Part shown: in pieces, positions 15,758-30,800 of the stretch
How the letters are laid out: each line of letters opens with the position of its first letter
How positions within the stretch are numbered: the stretch's first letter is position 1
DNA from: Nitrosomonas sp.
GTDB taxonomy: Bacteria; Pseudomonadota; Gammaproteobacteria; Burkholderiales; Nitrosomonadaceae
DNA length: 35,018 nt
Direction of reading: 5' to 3'
Assembly: GCA_008015565.1 (NCBI GenBank)
Contig: SSFV01000033.1
Span: 1 to 35,018 of the forward strand
Position numbers and translations under genes: made by a program
The notes under the pieces: generated by a model
What the model was told of the DNA's origin: nothing
The model's input: only the letters and a program-made list of their open reading frames with translations
Databases searched by the model: none

Positions 15758-18646
15758 CTAAATCACCACAAAATCCGCATTAGTCATGGCCAGCCCGCCG
15801 CTTAGGGTGGCAATCTGCTGCACTGCGCCAGCACCGTTACCATTTGCATCGTATAGTAACGCACCGGTCGAACTGTTATAAATGATGTGATCATTCGCAT
15901 CCAAAGCATTGGCGCCAATCCTGAACTGTGCCGCAGGCAGCGTACCTACTGGCCCTAATGCCGCGAACACGGCGTTGTCAAGTTGGATGGTATCGTTCGC
16001 AACGTTATAGTCAGTGATGACATCGATATGACCGGTCGTCGTGAACTTGAAAAAATCATTTCCCGTTCCACCCGTCATGCGATTCGCACCTCTGCCGCCA
16101 TCGAGCGTATCGCTTCCGGCTCCCCCATTCAATTGATTGGCGGCGTTGTTTCCAATCATGCTATTGTTCAACGAATTGCCGGTGCCATTGATCGTAGAAG
16201 TCCCCGTCAGCGTCAAATTTTCCACATTGGCAGGTAAGTTGTATGTCAGTCTGCTGCTGACCGTGTCCGTTCCTTCATTGACTTTTTCGTACACGACGTC
16301 GCCCGCATTTTCGACCAGGTACGTATCATTACCGGTGCCGCCCAGCATCGTATCCGCTCCCGACCAGCCAGCCAGCGTATCGTTGCCGGCATTACCCGCC
16401 AAAACGTTATTGGCAGCATTACCGGTCAAATTATCATTGAACGCGCTGCCAAGCAGGTTCTCTACATTTTTGATGGCATCCAATCCAGAACCGCCGGTAT
16501 TTTGCTGCGTGACGATATTGAGATTGACGGTAATCGCTGCACCGGCCGTAGAGTAAGTCACGGTATCGTTATTCGATGCCGTGCCGGTTAACACATTGTT
16601 GCCCGCCGTAGCAGTGAGCAATGCTCCGGCACCTGAGGTAAAGCTTTTAGTGCCAATCAGCGGTGTTGCGGTACTGTCCGAAACACTCGCGTTCACGCTA
16701 AATGCGCCGGTAAAATTCGTTGCTGGCGTGAGTATCACGTTTGCCAGCAAAGCATTGACGTTAGCCACCGCACCGCTTGCTGTCCAGGTTGCCGTTGCAG
16801 CATTGTAAGTTGACGTTACAGCACCGGAGGTTCCCGTGCTCAAACTGCCGGCGGCAGCATTCGATAATTTCAATGTCGCAGTAACAGTCGTACTGTCGGG
16901 ATCAATCACTACAATATCTTTCAGATTCAGCGGCGTGTTTTGGGTATATTTTTCGGCGATGGTTAAGTTACTGACATTTGGCGTATTGTTGTTGATGTAA
17001 AATCCACCGTAAGAACCAAAAAAGTGATAGCTGAAAAGAAATGTGGCATAGGCATCCAAATCGCCGTCACCGTCGATATCCACAAAGGTTTGATTGGTAA
17101 CATGAGTACGATCAAAGCCTGTCGGTAAGCTGAAAGGAGCGCCACCGCCATCGGTAAATTGCGGATTGCTTGCCGTTCCCGTATTCCAGTATAAGCGCGT
17201 TGCATTGCTGCCGGTGAAAACTTCCTGGTCGCCATCTTTATCAATATCAGCAAAGGTCGGATTGCTACCATTCAAACCGAACGGATTGGTCTGTGGCGCC
17301 GCAAATATTGGATTAGTCTTTGTGCCGGTATTTCTGAAAAACAATGTGCTACCTGCGGCGTTACCGATAAATGCATCCAGGTCGCCATCTTTGTCGATAT
17401 CAGTGAACGTCGGGGTCGATTCATTACCGGCATCTTTTAAACCGAACGGATTGGTTTGCGGCGCAGCAAAAACCGGATTGTTAATCGTTCCTGTGTTCCG
17501 GTAAAACAATGTATTACCGCTGGAATTACCGATAAAGGCATCCAAGTCCTTATCGCCGTCGATGTCAAAAAAGGCCGAACTGGAGAAACTTCCTACATCT
17601 GTCAAGCCAAATGGATTGGTCACGGCGGCAGCGAACGCGGGATTCTTGGCCGTTCCCGTATTTTCATAAAACCGCGTATTGCCGCCTTCATTAGCATAAA
17701 AATCACGCTCACCGACAAAAGCATCCATATCGCCATCGCCGTCGATATCGACAAAGGTCGGATCGGGACTGTACCCGACGTCGCCTAAACCGAATGTGTC
17801 GCCAAAAGCAAAAGAAGGCGTGTAACCAGCGCCTGCATTCTCAAAATAAAATGCGCCGTTGCTATTACCAATTAAAGCATCCTGATCACCATCATTATCC
17901 ATATCGGCAAAAGCGGGTTGTGGATAGGTTCCGATATGACTTAAACCAAACGCATTCTCGCTGACTCGAAAAAATAGCGGATTACCGGCCGTGCCGATAT
18001 TTCTATAAAAGAAAGTAGCCGCTCCAAACGTATAATGATTCGAACCGACAAAAGCATCCAAGTCGCCATCGCCATCGATATCGGCAAAAGTTGGACTGGA
18101 ATTTCCATACACGCCATTTAAGCCAAATGGGTTGCTGACCGCTGCAGCGAATACCGGATTGCTAATTGTTCCGGTGTTTTTGAAAAAATACAGACCACCA
18201 TCGTATTCCCCGATCATAGCATCCAGATCGCCATCACCATCGATATCAACAAAAGTAGGATCAACGCTAACTCCCACATTGCTTAAGCCAAATGGATTGA
18301 TTATCGATGCAGCGAAAGCAGGATTGACGCTCGTGCCGGTGTTTCTAAAAAACAGCATATTCCCCGTGCTTTGTCCTACGAATGCATCCTCATCGCCATC
18401 ATTATCGATATCAGCAAAAGCATAGTTGATTCCGCTACCGATATTCGTCAAACCGAACGGGTTAGTCTGGGGAGCGGCAAACGCAGGATTTGCAGCCGTT
18501 CCAGTATTTCTGGAGAAAAAAGTATTGCCACCGCTCCCCGCTCTAAAAGCGTCCAAGTCGCCGTCACCATCAATATCGACTAATTCCGAAAAACCACTTA
18601 AGCCAAATGGATTGGTAGCAGTAAGAACAAAAACTGGATCTGACAT
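15758..18646 (-). CDS. Secreted FG-GAP/VCBS-repeat and RTX protein
   Basis: This 962-residue acidic protein has no Sec signal peptide. Residues 12-548 hold ten tandem units of about 55 residues built on NPFGL, DIDGDGDLDAF and FFRNTGT; each carries a Ca-binding DxDxDGDxD loop typical of FG-GAP/VCBS repeats. A cadherin-like segment (555-662) follows, then two clusters of RTX nonapeptides (GGxGxDxL style, about 735-775 and 835-865) and a C-terminal type I secretion region. Type I secretion is inferred from the RTX repeats and lack of signal peptide; no transporter is in the window. AGGAG precedes the ATG. It lies 25 bp after the TIGR03032 gene on the same strand, so likely one transcript. Function is probably surface or matrix binding. 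Confidence 0.9.
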   Translation of the reverse strand: MSDPVFVLTATNPFGLSGFSELVDIDGDGDLDAFRAGSGGNTFFSRNTGTAANPAFAAPQTNPFGLTNIGSGINYAFADIDNDGDEDAFVGQSTGNMLFFRNTGTSVNPAFAASIINPFGLSNVGVSVDPTFVDIDGDGDLDAMIGEYDGGLYFFKNTGTISNPVFAAAVSNPFGLNGVYGNSSPTFADIDGDGDLDAFVGSNHYTFGAATFFYRNIGTAGNPLFFRVSENAFGLSHIGTYPQPAFADMDNDGDQDALIGNSNGAFYFENAGAGYTPSFAFGDTFGLGDVGYSPDPTFVDIDGDGDMDAFVGERDFYANEGGNTRFYENTGTAKNPAFAAAVTNPFGLTDVGSFSSSAFFDIDGDKDLDAFIGNSSGNTLFYRNTGTINNPVFAAPQTNPFGLKDAGNESTPTFTDIDKDGDLDAFIGNAAGSTLFFRNTGTKTNPIFAAPQTNPFGLNGSNPTFADIDKDGDQEVFTGSNATRLYWNTGTASNPQFTDGGGAPFSLPTGFDRTHVTNQTFVDIDGDGDLDAYATFLFSYHFFGSYGGFYINNNTPNVSNLTIAEKYTQNTPLNLKDIVVIDPDSTTVTATLKLSNAAAGSLSTGTSGAVTSTYNAATATWTASGAVANVNALLANVILTPATNFTGAFSVNASVSDSTATPLIGTKSFTSGAGALLTATAGNNVLTGTASNNDTVTYSTAGAAITVNLNIVTQQNTGGSGLDAIKNVENLLGSAFNDNLTGNAANNVLAGNAGNDTLAGWSGADTMLGGTGNDTYLVENAGDVVYEKVNEGTDTVSSRLTYNLPANVENLTLTGTSTINGTGNSLNNSMIGNNAANQLNGGAGSDTLDGGRGANRMTGGTGNDFFKFTTTGHIDVITDYNVANDTIQLDNAVFAALGPVGTLPAAQFRIGANALDANDHIIYNSSTGALLYDANGNGAGAVQQIATLSGGLAMTNADFVVI

Positions 18647-18671: not shown

Positions 18672-20153
18672 TTAGACTAATTTTCCAGCATTAGTGAGCG
18701 CCCGCTGTAAATACCCATGCAACTTCTGTTCAATAGGCTGTTGACGGTATTCAGGCAATACATACGATGATAATAATTCAACTTGTAACGCATTATTTTC
18801 CTGCCACGATTCGGCAACTGCGAAACCGATCATCTCGCCGTCAATTGAAGCCGATACGCCAAACAATTCACCGCGTTGCGGCATTGTGCGCCAGCGGTTA
18901 CGCAAACTGGGCTGGGTCATGGATTCGTAAGCCAGAAGATTCTCGGGTGTTAAATTTAAAACCTTCTGATATTTAACTGCTGATTGTTCACCCTGCTCCA
19001 ACTGCGAAGCACGCGGCACGCCCGGTTTCTGCACCGGTTGACTATGACCGGAACGGTTGAGGGCTGGCTTAGTCACGATGACGCCTCCCGAACCGGGAAA
19101 AGTGATCAAACGGTCAATGTCGTCATTCTGGAAACCCAGAGCTTTGGGCCGGGTTACGCCGGGTAGTACTACGACATCGAATAATTCTTCCACTACGCCA
19201 TTGATGTAGAGCGTATGAAGCAAATTGCCCGTATTGAGATCAACAATCATCAGGCCGCACTGCGATGTCATGTTGTCATTCACAAGCCGCTGCTCCAAAG
19301 CCAGGCCCGTAAATACTTTCGAGCGTAGCTTCGATAACCCGACCAAGGCATAATTTTTCCAGAATGCCAAACCGCGTACAAAACCCGGGCAAAAAATAAC
19401 CGGCACGAATTGACCGCTATCGAGAAAGCCAAACTCACCTTTTCCGGAATTGAGCAGCCACAATCTGTCTTGATACCAACGCGGTGAATGCGGCATGGAT
19501 AAACCGGAAGCGATGATTTCATTAGAAGGAATATGTACCACCACGCCGCCATCCAAGCGGTAATCGCGCCAGCCAGCCGCTTCGTCGGTAATGCTGCAAG
19601 CGGTTACATAAGCGGGTTCACCATCTTGCAACGCCAAGCCATTTAAATGGCAGCGGTCTTCCGGCGCAAGTTTTGTGACAAAAGGCGGTTTCCATACCGG
19701 CGCAAAACTGTAACCTGCTTGTAATTTGCCAAGACAGCTGAACTGAGTATTAACAAACAAAATTTCCTGCTTATTTGTCACAGCCAGATCGTGAACATTC
19801 AGATCGCCAGTGGTATGTGACTGACTAGGCATATATAAACGATCGCAATCTTGATAGCGCTCGTCCGGCGCCAAACGATTCTCAAAATGCCAAATCTGAT
19901 AGCGTGACGCCATGAAAAGTCGATCATAACTGGCATAAAGCCCCATCGGCTTGTCGAATAAGCGCTCATTGACGGCCAAACGGCCATTTTCTTTTCGTCC
20001 CACCAAAAACAATCGATTGGCCTGATAGGTTGTAAAAGCAAAACTGATCTGTTCGCTCCCCAACCATTGATAAAGATGATCAGATGCCTGCATGGTTACT
20101 GCTGGCGGGCTGCCGACCTCCGGTTGCTCTGCCAAAGGGTTACTCCCTATCAT
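18672..20153 (-). CDS. TIGR03032-family protein with degenerate GNAT-like tail
   Basis: This 493-residue protein has an N-terminal TIGR03032 domain (about 25-350), with hallmark segments FAFTTYQANRLFLVG, MPHSPRWYQDRLWLLNSG, CPGFVRGLAF and VVLPGVTRPKALGF. It looks like a beta-propeller; its biochemical role is unknown. A linker leads to residues 400-493, which resemble the first half of a GNAT acetyltransferase (SIDGEMIGFAVAE, then LLSSYVLPEYR). The acetyl-CoA loop RxxGxG/A is replaced by RQQPIEQ and the domain stops early, so catalysis is doubtful. No Shine-Dalgarno precedes the ATG. It is upstream of the RTX/VCBS gene. Confidence 0.8.
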   Translation of the reverse strand: MIGSNPLAEQPEVGSPPAVTMQASDHLYQWLGSEQISFAFTTYQANRLFLVGRKENGRLAVNERLFDKPMGLYASYDRLFMASRYQIWHFENRLAPDERYQDCDRLYMPSQSHTTGDLNVHDLAVTNKQEILFVNTQFSCLGKLQAGYSFAPVWKPPFVTKLAPEDRCHLNGLALQDGEPAYVTACSITDEAAGWRDYRLDGGVVVHIPSNEIIASGLSMPHSPRWYQDRLWLLNSGKGEFGFLDSGQFVPVIFCPGFVRGLAFWKNYALVGLSKLRSKVFTGLALEQRLVNDNMTSQCGLMIVDLNTGNLLHTLYINGVVEELFDVVVLPGVTRPKALGFQNDDIDRLITFPGSGGVIVTKPALNRSGHSQPVQKPGVPRASQLEQGEQSAVKYQKVLNLTPENLLAYESMTQPSLRNRWRTMPQRGELFGVSASIDGEMIGFAVAESWQENNALQVELLSSYVLPEYRQQPIEQKLHGYLQRALTNAGKLV

Positions 20154-20381: not shown

Positions 20382-22043
20382 CTAGCGGTTAATGACCTGT
20401 ATGGCTTTTATCAGAATACCGGGACGGCGAATTGAATCGTAAATCGGAGGTACTGCTTTATTGGTTTCAAAAAGCTCATAGACGGCTGTTTGAGCGCTGC
20501 GTACCGAATATTCCACGGTAAAAGCGCATTCATCAGGCAGCTCGGCAAACTGCCCGATAAAAGCGAAATTGCTGGCTCCCGCAGGTACGACATCAGGACG
20601 GTCTCCAGCCGCCCGCGGCATGAATGCGCTATCAATAAATGGCATGGCTGCCGGGATACACATAACCTTTCCGTTATTGGTAAACGGTTGCATGATTTCC
20701 TGGATTTTCAAGTGGTACCACAATTCTTGCAAAATTTCCGCGCCACTGCATGCCGACATTGTTTTTTGCACGTAATTGCCTTTGCGTTCCGGATATAATC
20801 CATATCCCCAGAAAATCTTTACAGACTCGGGCTGATCGGGGAAATGAGGCTGGTGAGCGATAACGATCGACATGAGCCAATTCGAATCGATCATCGTGAC
20901 TAACCCGCCTGTGCCATCGACATTCCCGCTAAACGTTTGCATATGATTATGAAAAGTGGCGTCTTGTAATGTGACCGTAAACGAATACCATTTTTGCAAT
21001 TCGATATGATCACTGAACACGCCAGGATTGCCAAATTCTTTATTTTTATTGGCAATACGCTGCCACAACATCCAGCTTGCGGAAGATGATTTTTCTTTCA
21101 ATACCGGCGAGGTTGTCCAGGTACCCTGACTGGTGCTATCGGTAATTGAGCCATTGGTAATCAAAACAACATCGTTGCTACCCAAAGCCACCTTGCTTGC
21201 CTGACCATCGGAATGAAGCAGGTGTATGGCCGTTGCGGTTTTTTTATCTGCCTGAAATTCAAAATCGATATCGGCCACTCGGGTTCGCAACTGAAAGCGG
21301 ACGCCGTTTTGTTGCAAATAGCGTTGCAGTGGAACAATGACTGAGTGATACTGGTTATAGCGGGTGCGCATTATGCCGCCTAAATACCCCAAGCCTTCTA
21401 CCAGATGTATGAAGCGCCGCAGATAACGGCGCATTTCCGCGAGCGAGCTCCAACGCTGGAAGGCAAACATAGATGTCCACAAATACCAGAAAGTGGTAGA
21501 AAAAAATGCGGTTGAAAACCAGTCCTCGATTTTCATATTGGCTAAACGGTGTTCCGTTGTCAGAATCAGTTGCAGTAAATTTATTTTATCGCGAAGGGAC
21601 AAGCCTAAGCGGGTAGTGTCAATTTTTTCACCGTTCTTGAGCAATCGTGCCTTGGCATTGGATACATAACGTCGGCTGAAAGCAAAGGATTCTTCCGTGA
21701 CGGAAACATTGGGGTCATCGTAAGAAGGGATATGCGAAAGCATATCCCAATAACATACATAATGCGCTTCGTGCATTCTGCCGCCACGAATCACATAGCC
21801 CTGCTCCGCATTGCCAGAGCCATCGCAAGCGCCACCTATGACTGAATCCTGCTCCAGAATGTGAATATTTTTACCGCTCACACCCGCATCGTTTAAGAGA
21901 AAGTAGGCGCTAGCCAATGTGGCGATACCGCTGCCAACCAAGTAAATTGTGGAATCTTCCGCTGGTTTTCGTTTCATTTCATTCAAATGAGCAGACAAGT
22001 CAGAATTACGATTGCCGGAAATTAATGAATCATTCCTGAACAA
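20382..22043 (-). CDS. Oleate hydratase (MCRA) family flavoprotein
   Basis: This 553-residue homologue of oleate hydratase / myosin-cross-reactive antigen matches members that add water to cis-9 double bonds of fatty acids with bound FAD. The Rossmann motif is VGSGIATLASAYFL (about 36-49). IGGACDGSGN, WYLWTSMFAFQRW and YNQY (Tyr232, equivalent to the catalytic Tyr) are present. The FAD-loop motif, RGGREM in characterised enzymes, reads RGGRMHE, so the catalytic Glu position appears to be Met90. Activity is therefore uncertain. The start is a TTG; the first in-frame ATG is at 21977 and leaves only ten residues before the FAD strand. It heads the minus-strand group. Confidence 0.82.
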   Translation of the reverse strand: MFRNDSLISGNRNSDLSAHLNEMKRKPAEDSTIYLVGSGIATLASAYFLLNDAGVSGKNIHILEQDSVIGGACDGSGNAEQGYVIRGGRMHEAHYVCYWDMLSHIPSYDDPNVSVTEESFAFSRRYVSNAKARLLKNGEKIDTTRLGLSLRDKINLLQLILTTEHRLANMKIEDWFSTAFFSTTFWYLWTSMFAFQRWSSLAEMRRYLRRFIHLVEGLGYLGGIMRTRYNQYHSVIVPLQRYLQQNGVRFQLRTRVADIDFEFQADKKTATAIHLLHSDGQASKVALGSNDVVLITNGSITDSTSQGTWTTSPVLKEKSSSASWMLWQRIANKNKEFGNPGVFSDHIELQKWYSFTVTLQDATFHNHMQTFSGNVDGTGGLVTMIDSNWLMSIVIAHQPHFPDQPESVKIFWGYGLYPERKGNYVQKTMSACSGAEILQELWYHLKIQEIMQPFTNNGKVMCIPAAMPFIDSAFMPRAAGDRPDVVPAGASNFAFIGQFAELPDECAFTVEYSVRSAQTAVYELFETNKAVPPIYDSIRRPGILIKAIQVINR

Positions 22044-22246: not shown

Positions 22247-22324
22247 CAGCTCAAGCAGTTTAAATCACTAATCAAGAAAACCTGGCTAATCGCTAGATAT
22301 CTGTTGAAAAGGGAGTTAAACATC

Positions 22325-22774
22325 ATGCATACACTCTTCACTCTATTCGTTGTTTTTTTTATCTCTTTAGTAGTGTCTGGCTGTAAAGATAACCAGCCGG
22401 CGCCGCCGCAAGAAACGATTTGCGGCACGATTCAGGGGTTGGCGTGCGCAGATAAGCAGTACTGCGACTTTGGGGTTGGTCAATGCAACGTTGCCGATGC
22501 GCAAGGCATTTGTAAAACTAAACCCGAAATATGTACAAAAGAGTACAAGCCGGTTTGCGGCTGCGACGGTAAAACTTATGGCAATGCCTGTGAAGCAGCA
22601 GCAGCGGGTATGTCCATTGATCATCCTGGGGAATGTAAAGCTACGCCTCAAGCATGTGGTGGAATCGCAGGTATTCAATGCCCGGATGGGCAGACTTGTA
22701 TCGATGATTCTGCTGACGACTGCAACCCTGCACAAGGGGGAGCGGATTGTCCAGGAATATGTAAAGTCGAATAG
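22325..22774 (+). CDS. Kazal-domain lipoprotein with Cys-rich modules
   Basis: This 149-residue lipoprotein has a signal segment ending in lipobox VSGC (Cys20). Residues 33-63 form a cysteine-rich module starting CGTIQGLAC. Residues 70-104 form a Kazal-type serine protease inhibitor domain (YKPVCGCDGKTYGNAC, then HPGEC). Residues 111-147 form a second cysteine module starting CGGIAGIQCP and ending CPGIC. Kazal domains block serine proteases with an exposed loop; whether this one inhibits is unknown. The ATG at 22325 follows AAGGGAG; an upstream in-frame TTG is less likely. It is the first gene of the copper-oxidase cluster. The end module recurs in the gene at 26054. Confidence 0.85.
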   Translation: MHTLFTLFVVFFISLVVSGCKDNQPAPPQETICGTIQGLACADKQYCDFGVGQCNVADAQGICKTKPEICTKEYKPVCGCDGKTYGNACEAAAAGMSIDHPGECKATPQACGGIAGIQCPDGQTCIDDSADDCNPAQGGADCPGICKVE

Positions 22775-22949
22775 ATTATTGTGGCACGCGGGGAAAAAGT
22801 ACGCTAGGAAATAAGCGCTTGAATTTTTCTGACATCATCAGAAATGAGACGCATTAGTCCAGGATGAAGCGAGGTTGACGTGGTTAATGCGGCTGACTAA
22901 GCATACTTTTTATGTTTATGAGTACCTTTCTGAAAAGGAGATGTAGATC

Positions 22950-25900
22950 ATGAATGTAAGGCATATATACCTCAAAATCGAAGCAATCCCAAACTACAGT
23001 CCCGTTGCGCCTGATGATGCGGAACATCACAAGCACCGTCTTGATTGCATGAGAAACATGGAGCATGCCGACACGACGATTCCCCAAATGGAAGTGGAGC
23101 GCCGTTCATTGGATGCCCTGGTTTATCGCGAATACCTTGATGCCGCCTACACTGTCATAAAAAACGCGCCGCTCATTGCGGCGGACATCAATGAGCCCCG
23201 TGTCGAACGGAGAATTCCCGGCACAGTCATCTATACACAACCCGGGGAGAGGCTTTATATCCATGTACTCAATGGCGACAGCAAGCCCCGCAGCTTTCAT
23301 GTGCACGGTCTGCATTATGGCATAGACTCAGATGGCGCTTGGCCTTTTGGCGTGCAGGAACAGGATGGACCCAATCGTAGCGACGCGATTTGTCCCGGTG
23401 ATCAGTGGTGTTATATCTTTGATGTGAAAGAAGATACCATTGGCGCATGGCCTTTTCACGACCATCACATGCATATCGAAGAGGCCGTAAAGCGTGGACT
23501 GTTCGGTGGCATCGTGGTTCGTGATCCTCATTGCGATAAGGCAGACCTTGAAGTACCCATTTTTTTTCACCGCCTAACCGCAAAAGTCGGCAATGCGCTT
23601 TTCGATAGTGGTTCGCTTGATGCAGGCGATTTATTTACATTTACTTTCAATCAGGAAGGCACGTTCGAGTACTATTGCCGTTTCCATCCTATGCAAGGGC
23701 GCGTACGTGTCACCGCGGCCGGCCCTCTAACCGCCACGATTAATATTCTGGATACGCCGGCACGCTTCGAACTTGATGATATAACCGTTGGCGCAGGTGC
23801 TGTAGTCACTTGGAATCATGCAGGCAATCAACCCCATACTGTAACCGAGCGCAGCGGCGCCGGGCTGGAATCATATGCCATCAACGGGCGCACATTCGCG
23901 GGAAATACGCCTACCATCGTGGCTAAATGCGGAACTCGCGTGCGCTGGTATGTCTTCAATCTGGATTTGGGCATGTTATGGCACAATTTCCATTTACATG
24001 GACAACGCTGGCGATGGGACAATGAATGGATCGATACCCGTTCATTCGGACCCGCCGAGTCTTTTGTCGCCGATACCATCGTACCGCCAGTCATTCTTAT
24101 GCCTTTGCCGCTTGACTGTGCGTGTAAACCGCATGAGGGGGACACGCACTCTCATTCATCCCCGACTGAGGAGGAAGGCGAACATGACGCGTCCCATCGC
24201 GGATCCGAAGCGAACCATCCCACCGCGTTGAAAACTTCGTCTAAGCAATCTGCCCATTCCTCCTTGTCGTCATCCGATCATAAACAGGAATATCCATCGA
24301 ACGATGCTTGTTCCGATCAATATGGAAAAAAACGCAAGAAATATCGCTTGCAAGGTGATTTCCTGATTCACTGCCATGTCGAGATGCACATGATGGAGGG
24401 CATGGTGGCGGTGCTGCGCGCCACACAGGAAGTCGAGCTAAGCGATGAGGAACTGAAGCGGATCTGTTACCAATTGCCGACCGTGCATGCGCATCAATGC
24501 CCAGAAGTCGATCATCACCCTTGCGGCGGGAACGGCCAGGACAGCTGGGAACTGCTGAATCCATCACCGATTTTCGTGGTTCACGGCGCGCTATTGAACA
24601 CAGGCCATGTATTGCTCTTCTCAGGAGCAACAGAAAGCCTTGATCAGGTTGCGTATCCGCTCGAAGCCCGTGTATGGGACCCTGCAACCAAGCAGATTAT
24701 GCCGGGCATCATTACTTTGCCGGAAGATCTATTCTGTAGCGGACATACTTTTTTAAATGATGGCCGTTTGCTTGTGATCGGCGGAGACACAACCCCAACT
24801 GGTCAAGGACATAGCAACAATCGCTGTTATATCTATACGCCTAATGCAGCGAATCCCGATAGTGGTACGTTTGGTCCAGCTGCCAGCATGGCCAATGCGC
24901 GGTGGTATCCGACCGCGGTGAGTCTCAGTGATGGGCGCATACTTGCTTTCTCAGGCGGACACCCGGTTGCGGCCCAAGTCGAAGTGTTCGGCGGCGGAGC
25001 TTGGGCACCGCTCGCGGGGGCAAACCGTTTATTCGATGAATTGTATCCCGGCATGCACCTGCTTCCTTCTGGAGAAATTTTCTATACCCGCGCCGGTTGG
25101 GCTGGCGCAAATGGAACTCAGACCGCTTACCTGACCATGACTGGGCCAAATAGCGGTAACTGGACTGATTACGGACAGCAACAATTTTATGACCGCCAGG
25201 AAGGCATGAGCCTGCTCATGCTCGATACGACCGTAAATCCAGTGCGTACGCACTTGTATGTTTTCGGCGGCGGCGTATCCGGCCCCGCCACGGCACGCAA
25301 TAATGCGACCGCTGAAGTAATCGAATTCAATGGCGGCATAGCGGGTGCAGCATGGACGCGTATTGTGGACATGAATTTTGGCCGTACGAATGTCAATGCC
25401 GTGGTACTACCCACCGGTAAAATACTTATCATCGGCGGTCACAGCAATGGTCAAAAATGGTCACCGACACCCGTACTGGAAACAGAAATCTATGACCCGG
25501 CCATGAATGCATGGACAGTGGGCGCACCACTGAATTTCCCGCGTCAGTATCATTCAGTGTGCATTTTGCTGCCGGATGGAAAAGTTCTCGCGGCAGGAGG
25601 GGTTGCGCCGGGCACCGCGGATCCGGATCAACACTCGGTTGAGCTTTATTCACCGGGTTATCTTAGCTTGGGTGCACGTCCGGTTATAGCGAATGCGCCG
25701 CCCGCTGTCACGTATACGAGCATTTTTGTGATTGAAACGCCACAGGCAGCGGATATCAATGCGGTGGTGCTGATCGCACCCATTGCAGTGACACACCATA
25801 CCGATGCTGGTCAGCGTTATATCAAATTGCCAATCAATTCACGCACCGCTACCACTCTGGAAACTACTGCTCCGGCGCATGGCAATATCGCGCCGCCAGG

Positions 25901-25970
25901 ATACTACATGCTGTTCATAGTCGATAATCAGGGTGTACCGTCAGAAGCAAGTTTCATATTGATTTCTTAA
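22950..25970 (+). CDS. Multicopper oxidase-copper radical oxidase fusion
   Basis: This 1006-residue two-enzyme fusion has an N-terminal laccase-like half (about 60-495) with all four copper motifs: HVHG (117-120), HDHHMH (170-175), HNFHLH (345-350) and HCHVEMHMMEGM (474-485, type 1 Cys475, Met485). Within it, residues 215-254 resemble a plastocyanin C-terminal half (YYCRFHPMQG) and 270-310 an N-terminal half. A His/Ser/Glu-rich linker (391-455) interrupts domain 3. The C-terminal half (about 530-1006) is a kelch-type galactose/glyoxal oxidase with DUF1929-like end. The expected Cys596-Tyr653 crosslink pair and ligands Tyr867, His868 and His949 are all present. Laccases reduce O2 to water; copper radical oxidases oxidise aldehydes or alcohols and yield H2O2. 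No signal peptide is visible. AAGGAG precedes the ATG. Confidence 0.9.
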   Translation: MNVRHIYLKIEAIPNYSPVAPDDAEHHKHRLDCMRNMEHADTTIPQMEVERRSLDALVYREYLDAAYTVIKNAPLIAADINEPRVERRIPGTVIYTQPGERLYIHVLNGDSKPRSFHVHGLHYGIDSDGAWPFGVQEQDGPNRSDAICPGDQWCYIFDVKEDTIGAWPFHDHHMHIEEAVKRGLFGGIVVRDPHCDKADLEVPIFFHRLTAKVGNALFDSGSLDAGDLFTFTFNQEGTFEYYCRFHPMQGRVRVTAAGPLTATINILDTPARFELDDITVGAGAVVTWNHAGNQPHTVTERSGAGLESYAINGRTFAGNTPTIVAKCGTRVRWYVFNLDLGMLWHNFHLHGQRWRWDNEWIDTRSFGPAESFVADTIVPPVILMPLPLDCACKPHEGDTHSHSSPTEEEGEHDASHRGSEANHPTALKTSSKQSAHSSLSSSDHKQEYPSNDACSDQYGKKRKKYRLQGDFLIHCHVEMHMMEGMVAVLRATQEVELSDEELKRICYQLPTVHAHQCPEVDHHPCGGNGQDSWELLNPSPIFVVHGALLNTGHVLLFSGATESLDQVAYPLEARVWDPATKQIMPGIITLPEDLFCSGHTFLNDGRLLVIGGDTTPTGQGHSNNRCYIYTPNAANPDSGTFGPAASMANARWYPTAVSLSDGRILAFSGGHPVAAQVEVFGGGAWAPLAGANRLFDELYPGMHLLPSGEIFYTRAGWAGANGTQTAYLTMTGPNSGNWTDYGQQQFYDRQEGMSLLMLDTTVNPVRTHLYVFGGGVSGPATARNNATAEVIEFNGGIAGAAWTRIVDMNFGRTNVNAVVLPTGKILIIGGHSNGQKWSPTPVLETEIYDPAMNAWTVGAPLNFPRQYHSVCILLPDGKVLAAGGVAPGTADPDQHSVELYSPGYLSLGARPVIANAPPAVTYTSIFVIETPQAADINAVVLIAPIAVTHHTDAGQRYIKLPINSRTATTLETTAPAHGNIAPPGYYMLFIVDNQGVPSEASFILIS

Positions 25971-26053
25971 TGTTAGAAAGGGGGTGAACAAAGAAGCAAG
26001 ATGGCAGTAATAAAACGTAAACCATGTCGCCTATGAGGCAAGGAGGCTTTATC

Positions 26054-26890
26054 ATGAAAAAAAGCACATATCAATCACACGCCGAATCAAATTCCTATGT
26101 GGAAGGCACAGTGCAAATAGTTTCTCAACGGTCTGCCAGGTGCTTCTCCATGCTGCTCGGCCTAGGGTTTTGCTTCGGTCTCATCGCTCTGCAACAGATT
26201 GCACGAGCAGAATCGATGACCTACTCAGACACGATCAAAACGGAGTATCAATATGCTGCAAAAGTCGCTTGTTCGTTACTGCTACCGCATCAGGATGGCA
26301 GTTTGGCGCGAGGCACCTACCGTACCATCGTCAATATCCACAATCCTAGCAATAAAAAAATCACTATTGCAGCCAAAGTGGCGCTTGCAACTCAAATGGG
26401 ATCCGAACCGGGGCCCTTTGATATTACGCCATTCAAGGGAATTACTCTGCAACCGGATGGCGCAGTCGGGGTAAATTGCTTTGATGTTGCAGGGTACTTT
26501 TGTCCGATTGATGGCGTGTGTGTGGATTTCGCATTTTTGGAAGGGTTTCTGGTAATAAAAAGCCCCATTGCATTGGATGTCGTGAGCGTATATACCGCCC
26601 GGCATACCGACGGAGATGTTGAATCGATCGATGTGGAAACGGTTAAATCACATAAGATTCGTGATATTGTCAAACTGGGATCAGCACAACCATCCAAGCC
26701 AGGGGAAGGTAAACGCATCGATTATCCGCCCAAAGGAGGATCTGCCTACTATGATCAGAAACCCAAACAAATGTGTGGCGGGATTGCCGCTTTTCCATGC
26801 CCAGAAGGGATGAAATGTGTCGATGACCTCACAGATGATTGTGATCCGGCTAAAGGCGGTGCCGATTGTCCAGGTATATGTGTGAAGTAA
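26054..26890 (+). CDS. Secreted protein with C-terminal Cys-rich module
   Basis: This 278-residue protein has a late hydrophobic export segment (about 30-52, MLLGLGFCFGLIALQQIARA). Residues 65-200 form a domain with YRTIVNIHNPSNKKI and a cysteine-containing loop. I know similar unnamed secreted bacterial proteins but no function. Residues 241-276 are a cysteine module starting CGGIAAFPCP and ending CPGIC. This matches the module closing the Kazal lipoprotein at about 25 of 36 positions. AAGGAGG stands 8 bp before the ATG at 26054. It follows the oxidase fusion by 83 bp, suggesting an operon. Confidence 0.7.
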   Translation: MKKSTYQSHAESNSYVEGTVQIVSQRSARCFSMLLGLGFCFGLIALQQIARAESMTYSDTIKTEYQYAAKVACSLLLPHQDGSLARGTYRTIVNIHNPSNKKITIAAKVALATQMGSEPGPFDITPFKGITLQPDGAVGVNCFDVAGYFCPIDGVCVDFAFLEGFLVIKSPIALDVVSVYTARHTDGDVESIDVETVKSHKIRDIVKLGSAQPSKPGEGKRIDYPPKGGSAYYDQKPKQMCGGIAAFPCPEGMKCVDDLTDDCDPAKGGADCPGICVK

Positions 26891-26968
26891 TTATAAGTAT
26901 GCCTAAAATAGGTTATGCACGATGTAATAGCTGGTTATTCCTTGGTTTGTTGCGTTAGGAAAAGTGCC

Positions 26969-27445
26969 ATGAAACCATTGATCATGTCGTTCGTAGGCAT
27001 CATGATCGTAGCTGGAATGAGTTCCGCTGTCTTGTCACAGGAGCGTTTCGAGATGAAAAGCATGACTTGCCACATTCGCTTAACAGAAACGGATAAATGC
27101 ACGGGAATACCGACGCTGCATTCCGGAACACTGGCTATTGCCAAAGAGGGTACTTTTACACTGCAGGCTCAATATCATGGTTGTTTCATGGTTGAGCCGG
27201 TAACCAAATCAGGAAGATTTCAGCTATCCCGTTTTGACGAAACCATGAGTTTTGAATTGCTAACTACTAAGACAACGGGAAATAAAGATACGGGAATGGA
27301 TTTTCCGAGAACGCTGGGATTTCTAAATTTAAATGACGACAAGCTGGATGGTTATTTTGTGGATATCTCGGCTGTGCTTCGCGGACATGGGCGCCATATC
27401 AATATGATTACCACCTTGAAATTACAGTGCGAGGTGAATGAATGA
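26969..27445 (+). CDS. Hypothetical secreted protein in the copper cluster
   Basis: This 158-residue protein has a clear signal peptide (MSFVGIMIVAGMSSAVLS) with probable cleavage near residue 24. The mature part has three cysteines, a GRFQLSRFDETMSFEL segment and a C-terminal LKLQCEVNE. I do not recognise the family. The start at 26969 was chosen because TAGGA stands upstream and the signal peptide begins there; the earlier in-frame ATG at 26915 adds 18 residues with no merit. It sits 78 bp after the cysteine-module gene and 135 bp before the small protein, all on the same strand. Residues are mixed, with no metal motif visible. Confidence 0.6.
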   Translation: MKPLIMSFVGIMIVAGMSSAVLSQERFEMKSMTCHIRLTETDKCTGIPTLHSGTLAIAKEGTFTLQAQYHGCFMVEPVTKSGRFQLSRFDETMSFELLTTKTTGNKDTGMDFPRTLGFLNLNDDKLDGYFVDISAVLRGHGRHINMITTLKLQCEVNE

Positions 27446-27827: not shown

Positions 27828-29306
27828 ATGGCTATCAGAAAAGATGCAAATACGCTGACTACTGCGGAACGGGCAGAATTCGTTGCTGCCATTCAAGAAC
27901 TGAAGGCCGAAGGCATTTATGATCAGTTTGTGCTCAGGCACGCAAACGCTATTATGAATGCTATTCATCGTTGTCCCGCTTTCCTGCCCTGGCACCGCCG
28001 TTTTATTTATGACCTAGAACTAGAATTGCAGCGCGTCTCGGGCAATCCCAATCTTGGCATACCCTATTGGAACTGGCCCGCAGGAGGTGCGAGTGCTTCC
28101 ATGTGGGATAACGATTTACTTGGCGGAGATGGCGATGCCGGTGGTGTCGTTCGTACCGGACCATTCCGGGCCGGTCAGTGGACCGTTATCAATTCCAGTG
28201 GAGTGCCAGCGGGTCCATTGATGCGCGAATTTGGCCAGAATGGATTGCCAACCTTGCCTACTCAGGCTGAGATTGATCAAGTTATGGCGGTCACGCCTTA
28301 TGACACGCCTCCCTGGAACATGAGCAGCAATCCAAGTTTCCGTAATCAACTGGAAGGCTGGATTGGCCCTAATCTGCATAACCGCGGGCATGTCTGGGTG
28401 GGTGGTTCCATGTTACCGATGACCTCGCCGAATGATCCGGTGTTCTTCATGAACCATTGCATGGTGGATAAGATTTGGCATGAGTGGCAAATACGCTTTC
28501 CGAATCAAGGTTATCTTCCTGCCAATGGCGGTCCCTTTGGGCAAAATTTGACCGATGCTATGAATAACACCCCTTCAGGCCAAGTTGGATCGCGCCCTAT
28601 CGATGTGCTAGACAGTGCGGCGCTTGGCATTGTGTATGACGATGCCGTCGTGCAGCCTCCACCCCAAATACCGCTCATTGTTGTCGGAGCCGCTCCTGTG
28701 CAGGCCGATATCGCAACGGCTGGAGAAACGGATGTTTTCCGGTTTGAAGTTCCAACCTTCGGCCCTCATACGATGTTTACCACCGGCCCATCCGATACGT
28801 TCATGACATTGTTTGGTCCGAACGATCCGAATGTCGAAGTGACATCAGACGATGATGCAGGCGAGAATTTTAACGCCCAAATCATCCGCAATCTCTCTGC
28901 AGGAACCTATTACTTACGCATTCGTCTTTTCAGTCCGAACGCAACAGGAAATTATGCAGTCGCAGTGCGCTCTGATGGCGCGCCACCCAATCCCATTCCC
29001 GAGCTCATAGTCGATGGCGCAAGTATCGACGCCGCTATTTCCGCAGCAAATGAAAGCGATGTGTACCGGTTTAATATAGCGGCAGAAGCTGTTTATACCA
29101 TCGAAACAAGCGGGACAACGGATACTTTCATGACATTGCACGGTCCGGACAGTGAGATACCGGAGATTGACCGCAATGATGATGGCGGCGTTTCTTTCAA
29201 TGCGCGTATCCAGCGCCAGCTAGCGCCGGGTGAGTATTTTGCCCGGGTACGGCACTATTCGGCTAACGGTACGGGTTCCTATTCCATCCGGGTAATTCAG
29301 GGATGA
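27828..29306 (+). CDS. Tyrosinase with two C-terminal PPC domains
   Basis: This 492-residue type 3 copper enzyme oxidises phenols and catechols to quinones with O2. The CuA site shows His38, His47 and His56 with the family spacing (HANAIMNAIHRCPAFLPWHRRF). CuB shows His184, His188 (LHNRGHVW) and His210 (DPVFFMNHCMVDKIW); the residue before His210 is Asn rather than the frequent His. The catalytic domain ends near residue 270 and is followed by two PPC (pre-peptidase C-terminal) domains, about 283-383 and 392-490, in place of a lid or caddie. No signal peptide is visible. AGGAGG precedes the ATG. It closes the copper cluster. Confidence 0.92.
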   Translation: MAIRKDANTLTTAERAEFVAAIQELKAEGIYDQFVLRHANAIMNAIHRCPAFLPWHRRFIYDLELELQRVSGNPNLGIPYWNWPAGGASASMWDNDLLGGDGDAGGVVRTGPFRAGQWTVINSSGVPAGPLMREFGQNGLPTLPTQAEIDQVMAVTPYDTPPWNMSSNPSFRNQLEGWIGPNLHNRGHVWVGGSMLPMTSPNDPVFFMNHCMVDKIWHEWQIRFPNQGYLPANGGPFGQNLTDAMNNTPSGQVGSRPIDVLDSAALGIVYDDAVVQPPPQIPLIVVGAAPVQADIATAGETDVFRFEVPTFGPHTMFTTGPSDTFMTLFGPNDPNVEVTSDDDAGENFNAQIIRNLSAGTYYLRIRLFSPNATGNYAVAVRSDGAPPNPIPELIVDGASIDAAISAANESDVYRFNIAAEAVYTIETSGTTDTFMTLHGPDSEIPEIDRNDDGGVSFNARIQRQLAPGEYFARVRHYSANGTGSYSIRVIQG

Positions 29307-29400: not shown

Positions 29401-30498
29401 TTAAACAAACGCGATACCGCTTAGCAGATATCCTTCAAGACCGGTGCTTATGGCATTAATCTCGGTATTGGCAGCGATTTCCAGTAACTGTGCCTGCGTA
29501 TAGACGCCATCTTCTAGCCATCCGGTAAAAAAATCGTGATCCGTTACGGAAGGCGCTGTGCCCACTACATTTTGATATACGGTATCGACAAAATCATCGT
29601 TGGGGAGATTACCCATGACATCAACCGCAAGCTGTGAAACATTCAGCATGCTCTGGCCGGAATCGAATAAATTAAGGCCGACACCCACATAATCGGGATG
29701 TTCTTCGATAGTAGCTGGACCGAATGCGGCACCGATGATTCGGATCGAACTGTTTGCTGCCTGCCCGTCCTTGAGATCAAGGGCAAGATTTTTGTCGGTA
29801 AAGCGGAGCCGTTCCATTTCAAATAATGTGTCGTTTCCATCTATACCGGAAACAGTAAAGCTTAAATCAGAACTGGTTGTAGTCGTACCGGAAACTGAGT
29901 AGTTTTCTAGAGCGCTACTGAAAACCGCCGTGTCGATACCAGCACCGCCATTTATTGTGTCATCGCCTGTGCCGCCATTTATCGTGTCATTAGCAGCGCC
30001 AGCCTGGATGCCATCGCTACCTGCCGTCCCGGAAAGATTATCCGGGCCATCGGTTCCTGAAATCACATTTCCGAATAAAGAACCCGTAATACCGGCAAAG
30101 TTGGTAGGTGTGGGTGTGTTGACAGTAGAACCGGAGCCGACTACCAGCGAGCCGACCGTTGATAATGCAGCGTAGGATACCGGGCCCCCTTGTAAACCGG
30201 GAAAATTTACGGTGCCATTGGTAGTAAACAAGAAGCCGTTCGGAATGATGTAATCGGGCGTGACAATGCCAAGATCTGCAAATCCCTGCGTGGCAACCAG
30301 CACTGCTTTACCGTTCGTCGCCTGGTTGGGTAAATCGGTAGTGAATGAATAAGTATTGGTGTTGGTGCCATCGCTGGAAGTAAGCGAGTGTCCTGTCCAA
30401 AAGCCTTGATGATCGCTATCCCCAACCAATTCTATAAATTGAACCGCGCCATCAGCATTTGAATAGATTTCGTTGATATGGAATAAATGAAATGTCAT
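29401..30498 (-). CDS. RTX calcium-binding protein with DUF4214-like C-terminus
   Basis: This 365-residue secreted protein has an N-terminal domain of about 100 residues starting FHINEIYSNADGAVQFIELV. A linker leads to RTX repeats at about 148-192 (NDTINGGTGDDTINGGAGID). The C-terminal part (about 293-345) resembles DUF4214 (DFVDTVYQNVVGTAPS), often found in surface-layer or matrix-linked RTX proteins. No Sec signal peptide is present, and type I secretion is inferred from the RTX repeats. The start at 30498 is preferred to an upstream in-frame start because GAGGAG stands directly before it. It converges on the tyrosinase gene. Confidence 0.82.
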   Translation of the reverse strand: MTFHLFHINEIYSNADGAVQFIELVGDSDHQGFWTGHSLTSSDGTNTNTYSFTTDLPNQATNGKAVLVATQGFADLGIVTPDYIIPNGFLFTTNGTVNFPGLQGGPVSYAALSTVGSLVVGSGSTVNTPTPTNFAGITGSLFGNVISGTDGPDNLSGTAGSDGIQAGAANDTINGGTGDDTINGGAGIDTAVFSSALENYSVSGTTTTSSDLSFTVSGIDGNDTLFEMERLRFTDKNLALDLKDGQAANSSIRIIGAAFGPATIEEHPDYVGVGLNLFDSGQSMLNVSQLAVDVMGNLPNDDFVDTVYQNVVGTAPSVTDHDFFTGWLEDGVYTQAQLLEIAANTEINAISTGLEGYLLSGIAFV

Positions 30499-30800
30499 TT
30501 TTATCTCCTCATTAAAATGATTGCCTTCCAGCCTCAAGTAATGATGGAACATAGAAAGCTTTTTGTGCGGTTTTTTGCGAAGTTTTGCTTACCCTCGCCA
30601 TCTTTCAAGGATGTTAGCCTATTCCTTTTGACAATGAAAGCCATTTGATTCAAGTGCTGGCCGATACGCCAGTTTTACGCGTATACTGAATTGTCAGCGA
30701 GAATGGCGGCGGATGGGCAGCAGTGCCAAAGCGAATAGATTGCGTAGGAAGAGGGAACATGTATGCATATTTTTAGCCGCTTTACCCATATCATCTAATC
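30499..30800. other. Shared upstream region of divergent genes
   Basis: This gap of about 300 bp separates the start of the RTX gene (minus) from the lipoprotein gene (plus). It holds a TTGACA at 30628-30633 but no good -10 at the right spacing, and a TATACT near 30700 without a clear -35. No confident promoter or small gene can be assigned. Confidence 0.35.

Follow-up and report, generated by a model that had tools for sequence, protein, structure and literature searches.

A multicopper oxidase fused to a copper radical oxidase in Nitrosomonas, with an apparently permuted blue-copper-type domain

The fusion gene and its two halves

We analysed a 35,018-nucleotide stretch of Nitrosomonas sp. 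DNA (contig SSFV01000033.1, assembly GCA_008015565.1; hereafter the window), in which a single gene joins a multicopper oxidase (MCO) to a copper radical oxidase (CRO). The gene occupies positions 22950..25970 of the plus strand, on which all features below lie unless a minus sign is given, and encodes 1006 amino acids plus a stop (the open frame around 22950-25970 has a length of 1007 when counted as an open frame). The start was fixed at the ATG because AAGGAG, a ribosome-binding-site-like sequence read from the DNA, lies 9 bases 5' of it (22935..22940) and an in-frame TAG stands directly upstream (22944-22946). A promoter scan gave fewer matches than shuffled sequences (9 vs 11.5). A Pfam domain search, one of the checks proposed in the initial annotation, placed MCO domains in the first half (Cu-oxidase_3, residues 85-193, and Cu-oxidase_2) and kelch and galactose-oxidase early-set domains in the second (Kelch_6 and other Kelch models; GO-like_E_set, residues 910-1004), all above cut-off, and each half indeed belongs to an already known family. 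Two further models stayed below cut-off, Glyoxal_oxid_N (30.8 vs 37.5 bits) and Copper-bind (20.7 vs 21.2).

The first MCO domain (residues 1-205; 22950..23564), recognised by Pfam, alignment and fold match, carries the trinuclear-cluster ligands H117 and H119 (codons 23298-23306) and H170 and H172 (codons 23457-23465). The second contains copper motif III, WHNFHLH (H345, H348, H350; 23982..23999), and copper motif IV, assigned by alignment, HCHVEMHMMEGM (H474, C475, H476, H480, M485; 24369..24404). All 12 ligands of an MCO, namely the eight trinuclear-cluster histidines and the type-1 His, Cys, His and axial Met, were found, and these 12 residues were invariant in a 27-sequence alignment that includes the window's own database entry. 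In a 73-sequence alignment, the MCO ligands and the CRO residues were likewise invariant, except H476 (at least 90% conserved). With two cupredoxin domains, the type-1 Cys 475 in the second and a fold match of 238 residues to 8aip, the MCO half is by sequence a two-domain, small-laccase/ceruloplasmin-type unit. The earlier description as a full laccase-type MCO therefore holds for the copper ligands but not for the fold, which is two-domain with an inserted cupredoxin rather than that of a three-domain laccase. Two-domain laccases (e.g., PDB 3cg8 and 8aip) are homotrimers with the trinuclear cluster between chains, and homotrimers of this small-laccase-like kind are predicted for the fusion. 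Unlike the fusion, they have no permuted cupredoxin between the domains, no His-rich insert between motifs III and IV and no C-terminal CRO. Ceruloplasmin and the A domains of coagulation factors V/VIII gave the MCO half its best match, by fold as well as by sequence profile; ceruloplasmin has six cupredoxin domains in one chain, whereas the fusion has two MCO domains and one inserted cupredoxin.

The CRO half (residues 526-1006; 24525..25967) is of the GlxA type according to an NCBIfam GlxA model and alignment. Its key residues, C596 (24735-24737), W652-Y653 (24903-24908), Y867-H868 (25548-25553) and H949 (25794-25796), were all invariant in the 27-sequence alignment. The residues and fold of an AA5 copper radical oxidase (a Cys and a Tyr for the cross-link, an axial Tyr, a His pair, and kelch and early-set domains) are all present, and a Tyr-Cys bond, a radical and O2-dependent oxidation are predicted for this half. 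Displacement of C596, Y653, Y867, H868 or H949 had been named as a result that would speak against the fusion; the five residues stand exactly at those numbers. The GlxA model (NF052501) matched at 1.7e-66 and 224.8 bits, well under its equivalog cut-off of 800. The CRO half has the kelch and early-set domains, Cys-Tyr pair, axial Tyr, two His and Trp adjoining the cross-link Tyr in common with Streptomyces lividans GlxA (AA5, PDB 4unm); it differs in sequence (28% identity), its place within a larger chain and the lack of a signal peptide. Mazurkewich and coworkers reportedly described, in 2023, an AA5 alcohol oxidase of Burkholderia pseudomallei fused to an inactive CE3 domain, which is likewise a bacterial CRO with an added domain, but there the partner is esterase-type, not an oxidase as here.

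The two halves meet at residues 517-533 (24498..24548), where a Cys pair in the MCO tail (C517/C525), usually in the form C-P-x6-C and also carried by MCO-only relatives, is followed by the CRO start (W533). Counted from C525 to W533, 136 of 145 aligned rows have a spacing of 8 or 9 residues. As read from these rows, the junction is short and length-conserved, with no flexible linker between the enzymes.

Conservation was examined with a database search that yielded 967 related proteins among 7996 scored (the best 120 of the 967 are listed) and a locus scan of one genome per species across 84,980 species, which gave 29 loci and, being based on two peptide patterns, will miss some. The window, 355 database proteins and 29 locus frames were combined into a 385-row alignment. 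Every MCO and CRO ligand position was covered in 144 rows, and removal of a spurious minus-strand frame (L012_3_4733) left 143. Among these, the exact MCO set was present in 136 rows and the exact CRO set (Cys, Trp, Tyr, Tyr, His, His) in 137. The exceptions were P0087 and P0090, in which the blue-copper His is replaced (P0090 also lacks one MCO His), P0159, which differs at the axial Met and two CRO positions, and five divergent loci. An assembly or frameshift artefact was rejected because 22 of the 29 loci, from named genomes, carry both complete halves. These results indicate that the fusion is real and that, judged by alignment and Pfam domains, one 1006-residue chain holds both complete ligand sets, as first annotated. 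In the open-licence full-text literature, outside which most subscription journals fall, we found no account of an MCO-CRO fusion and no identical characterised fusion; the parts are known families, and the combination is without a precedent found in that literature.

A simple hydropathy scan, which is not a dedicated signal-peptide program, detected no strongly hydrophobic start in any of the 119 fused proteins whose N-terminus is complete; with the same scan, 8 of 12 hand-picked stand-alone CROs had such a start. The window's fusion thus shows no signal peptide of the kind seen in secreted laccases and CROs, and with a stop directly upstream of its ATG, the protein is either cytosolic or exported without a classical signal. 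An N-terminal extension of about 117-188 residues precedes the MCO in 30 of the 119 proteins (e.g., P0053), again with a start that is not strongly hydrophobic.

The blue-copper-type domain and the His-rich insert

An amicyanin-like domain of ~90 residues (residues 214-303; 23589..23858) is inserted between the two MCO domains. Its sequence looks like the second half of an amicyanin (FDSG...YYCRFHPM) continued by the first half (VTWNHAGNQPHTVT). When the halves were swapped, phmmer gave one continuous match to the blue-copper protein 5fc9 (45.7 bits, 6.7e-11), together with amicyanin matches; in the native order, the 5fc9 match was broken into two pieces that cross, with scores of 30.2 and 6.0 bits, the latter not significant alone. 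Coverage of the Pfam Copper-bind profile was correspondingly extended from positions 66-98 before the swap to 12-98 after it. An otherwise unassigned 184-residue frame near one divergent locus (L031; 3765-4316) was also matched by the permuted-domain profile in two pieces with their order exchanged. Judged by its sequence, the inserted domain therefore looks like a blue-copper domain that has been circularly permuted in nature and sits inside an MCO; a search of the same literature aimed at such a case gave two unrelated papers and no account of it.

The type-1 ligand set of His, Cys, His and Met, common to amicyanin and plastocyanin, is complete in the inserted domain (C243, H246 and M248, 23676-23693; H296, 23835-23837) and was exact in 140 of the 143 rows. 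In amicyanin and plastocyanin, with which the insert also has sequence in common, the ligand His comes before the Cys; in the fusion, the two halves stand in exchanged order. The permuted domain is predicted to bind blue copper, and since its type-1 set is full, six coppers per chain are predicted, four in the MCO, one in the permuted domain and one at the radical site. In a Nitrosocosmicus protein (P0189), the corresponding pair of MCO domains has no cupredoxin sequence between them. Together with P0192, which comes from a short contig, P0189 represents Nitrosocosmicus-type MCOs of the fusion's family that have neither the blue-copper insert nor a CRO.

The initial annotation had also proposed that a His-rich linker between the enzymes serves as a copper reservoir. 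This proposal was not supported as worded. The low-confidence, His-rich insert (residues 386-462; 24105..24335) lies within the second MCO domain, where it separates motif III from motif IV. Across 137 rows its length had a median of 64 residues (range 10-109), with 12% His; at least five His were present in 111 of these rows and none or one in 9, and the shortest inserts, of 10-14 residues in some members, had little or no His. The divergent loci instead have a His-rich stretch ahead of the permuted domain. These counts show that the stretch is recurrent among the aligned sequences but not required.

Distribution and relatives of the fusion

The 22 complete loci comprised 14 from Nitrosomonadaceae (Nitrosomonas, Nitrosospira and Nitrosovibrio) and eight others, from Anaeromyxobacter, Acidobacteria gp4 and Rhodocyclaceae and from the five divergent loci, whose hosts are Rhizobacter, Nitrospira, two Acidimicrobiia and Pyrinomonadaceae. 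Within the window's genus, a full-length fusion was present in 4 of 37 genomes, including that of the window, and in none of 24 other genomes of the order. The gene is thus patchy and accessory. The nearest named locus, at 95% identity, is in a Nitrosomonas sp. metagenome bin.

In the divergent loci (L031, L032, L034, L035 and L036), the MCO is kept with the axial Met changed to Leu, and the cross-link Cys and the Trp align with Ser and Phe, respectively, while both Tyr and both His are retained; L036 deviates at two more MCO positions. With their copper ligands kept, these five proteins form a natural test set for an uncross-linked site.

A phylogeny of both halves, also proposed at the outset, gave a mixed picture in two trees built from chosen subsets (50 and 57 rows). 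The 35 fused rows in the CRO tree did not form one clade (AU p 0.006), and the five divergent rows stood apart, with a long-branch warning at that point. A second, separate fusion event in the divergent group is suggested by this topology; it is uncertain because of the long branches. In the MCO tree, MCO-only rows were placed among fused rows. Loss and repeated gain give the same picture here, because the root is unsure and some of the MCO-only rows, taken from short contigs, may be truncated fusions.

Some apparently separate halves are probably fragments. Seven proteins first taken for stand-alone CROs (P0246, P0248, P0252, P0255, P0264, P0268 and P0270; 45-53% identity) look like fusion pieces because their sequences start within the C-terminal part of the MCO, and P0127 and P0273, from contigs of 9,024 bases each, resemble a single frame-split fusion. 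By contrast, P0274, P0278 and P0281 (43-45%) each start with a hydrophobic stretch and are apparently genuine stand-alone CROs. The window's own genome has two tandem stand-alone CRO-type genes with hydrophobic starts on contig C39 (L010 and L011), about 31-40% identical to the fusion's CRO in matched stretches. Database labels on members of the family, where named, included 'galactose oxidase-like domain-containing protein', 'plastocyanin' and 'FtsP/CotA-like multicopper oxidase'.

Gene neighbourhood and possible functions

The fusion gene is flanked by a Kazal-type lipoprotein-like gene and by two small genes of unknown family, beyond which lies a tyrosinase with PPC domains. The first small gene encodes a secreted-looking 288-aa protein (26024..26890), 53 bases 3' of the fusion and likely on the same transcript; the second encodes 176 aa (26915..27445). 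The tyrosinase, with two PPC domains (27828..29306), was the only tyrosinase match in the window's genome. Tyrosinases were present in the fetched flanks of 8 of the 29 loci, against a chance expectation of ~0.3 of 25 calculated from tyrosinase genes per genome. Four loci (L012, L013, L020 and L029) have the window's arrangement, three (L014, L017 and L027) have another, divergent tyrosinase upstream of the fusion, and one (L026) has two tyrosinases downstream; because the loci are related, these three arrangements are a better count than eight loci. The remaining 21 loci had no tyrosinase in the fetched flanks, some of which were short. The neighbourhood suggests that the tyrosinase is likely a functional partner of the fusion.

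How a CRO acquires its radical and then maintains it is a continuing question in practical work. According to PMC10928124, CROs lose the radical and are reactivated by strong oxidants, laboratory practice is to add a peroxidase and a mediator, and a Trametes enzyme was best reactivated by HRP with ABTS. Streptomyces relies on helper proteins, the peroxidase DtpA and the copper chaperone Sco being required for GlxA maturation (PMC4736821). We tentatively propose, at somewhat less than an even chance, that the MCO half is a built-in one-electron oxidant that matures the CRO radical or keeps it active. The CRO half would convert a primary alcohol or aldehyde and O2 to the oxidised product and H2O2; on loss of the radical, an electron taken from the CRO site would travel by way of the permuted blue copper to the type-1 copper of the MCO and then to the trinuclear cluster, where O2 would be reduced to water. 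The MCO would thereby do in-chain the job of the peroxidase added to free-standing enzymes, and an activation step that is normally external would be built into the enzyme. We infer this electron path and the substrate, and the nearby tyrosinase may point to a common pathway in which phenols and aldehydes are oxidised or cross-linked. The more specific form of the proposal, a self-activating six-copper oxidase in which the laccase site and the tyrosyl-cysteine radical copper are wired in series through the permuted blue-copper relay and the laccase half (re)generates the radical with O2, is doubtful. If it were true, it would be a natural in-chain solution to CRO activation, one perhaps reached twice independently. 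A laccase and a blue-copper-type domain on a CRO in one natural chain would make activation testable by single-residue mutants of one protein, and the chain might serve as a one-piece biocatalyst needing no added activator.

Several observations weigh against a built-in oxidant. MCOs with the permuted domain exist without a CRO (P0149, P0155, P0165 and P0166), and the five divergent loci retain an MCO next to a CRO half with Ser at the position of the radical Cys; the MCO therefore has some function of its own, apart from the radical. The blue-copper His is missing in P0087 and P0090, L036 gave no match to the permuted-domain profile, and 5 of 25 genomes searched had no tyrosinase at all, which also speaks against a strict link of tyrosinase and fusion. 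One fungal glyoxal oxidase is described as fully active without an activator (PMC10928124). GlxA maturation is restorable by added copper according to a section heading in PMC4736821, and a title cited there states that the galactose oxidase cross-link forms without a need for dioxygen, so that DtpA need not be a simple oxidant.

About equally likely is a bifunctional enzyme in which the laccase half acts on phenols and the CRO half on an alcohol or aldehyde with no exchange of electrons, the fusion only setting their ratio and place beside the tyrosinase, for phenolic cross-linking, pigment or detoxification. The two complete ligand sets, the MCO-only relatives and the tyrosinase in the window and in 8 of 29 loci are consistent with this, as is the row in Acidobacteria gp4 (L026:2168-11274) of another MCO, the fusion, two tyrosinases, a LodA-type oxidase and a second MCO of the fusion's family, which is cut by the contig end. 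Such an enzyme leaves unexplained, however, the short, length-conserved junction and the conserved extra blue-copper ligand set.

Copper handling, in which the MCO would be a cuprous oxidase and the CRO would receive its copper from a store in the His-rich insert, is unlikely. The frequency of inserts with at least five His, the His-rich stretch placed elsewhere in the divergent chains and the limitation of GlxA maturation by copper supply (PMC4736821) would fit it, but some members have only the short inserts with little or no His, and the window's genome gave no match to DUF326, searched as the mark of a Csp-type cytosolic copper store (4 of 19 genomes were positive). Less probable again is a CRO half that acts as a structural or binding scaffold while the MCO alone works: the five divergent loci did lose the cross-link Cys and Trp with the CRO fold kept, but 137 of 143 rows keep the CRO set, which is that of the main group, the window included. 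Direct involvement in ammonia oxidation, e.g., in nitric oxide or hydroxylamine chemistry, would fit the 14 of 22 complete loci that are from Nitrosomonadaceae; it is very improbable, since only 4 of 37 genomes of the window's genus carry the fusion and eight complete loci lie outside the family (Acidobacteria, Anaeromyxobacter, Rhodocyclaceae and others).

A LodA-type gene stood next to the fusion only in L026; LodA was present somewhere in 12 of 26 genomes, and none was found in the window's genome. The genomes of L016, L019, L023 and L026 (G005:C89, G008:C1, G012:C111 and G015:C496) have a tyrosinase and a LodA-type gene within ~1 kb on the same strand, located away from the fusion. Linkage of the L023 pair to the fusion was rejected, its contig being different from that of L023 (68,353 vs 19,748 bases). 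In the window, the Kazal-type protein (22304-22774) and the 288-aa protein, at the two ends of the fusion, have a similar Cys-rich tail, GGADCPGIC, and both accompany the fusion in several Nitrosomonas-type loci. An oleate-hydratase-type (MCRA) gene (20382-22043, minus strand) and a DUF4915 protein gene (18672-20153, minus strand) adjoin the fusion, as they do in L012. The window also encodes two RTX-repeat proteins, of which one has FG-GAP repeats and the other DUF4214, at 15758-18646 and 29401-30552, both on the minus strand.
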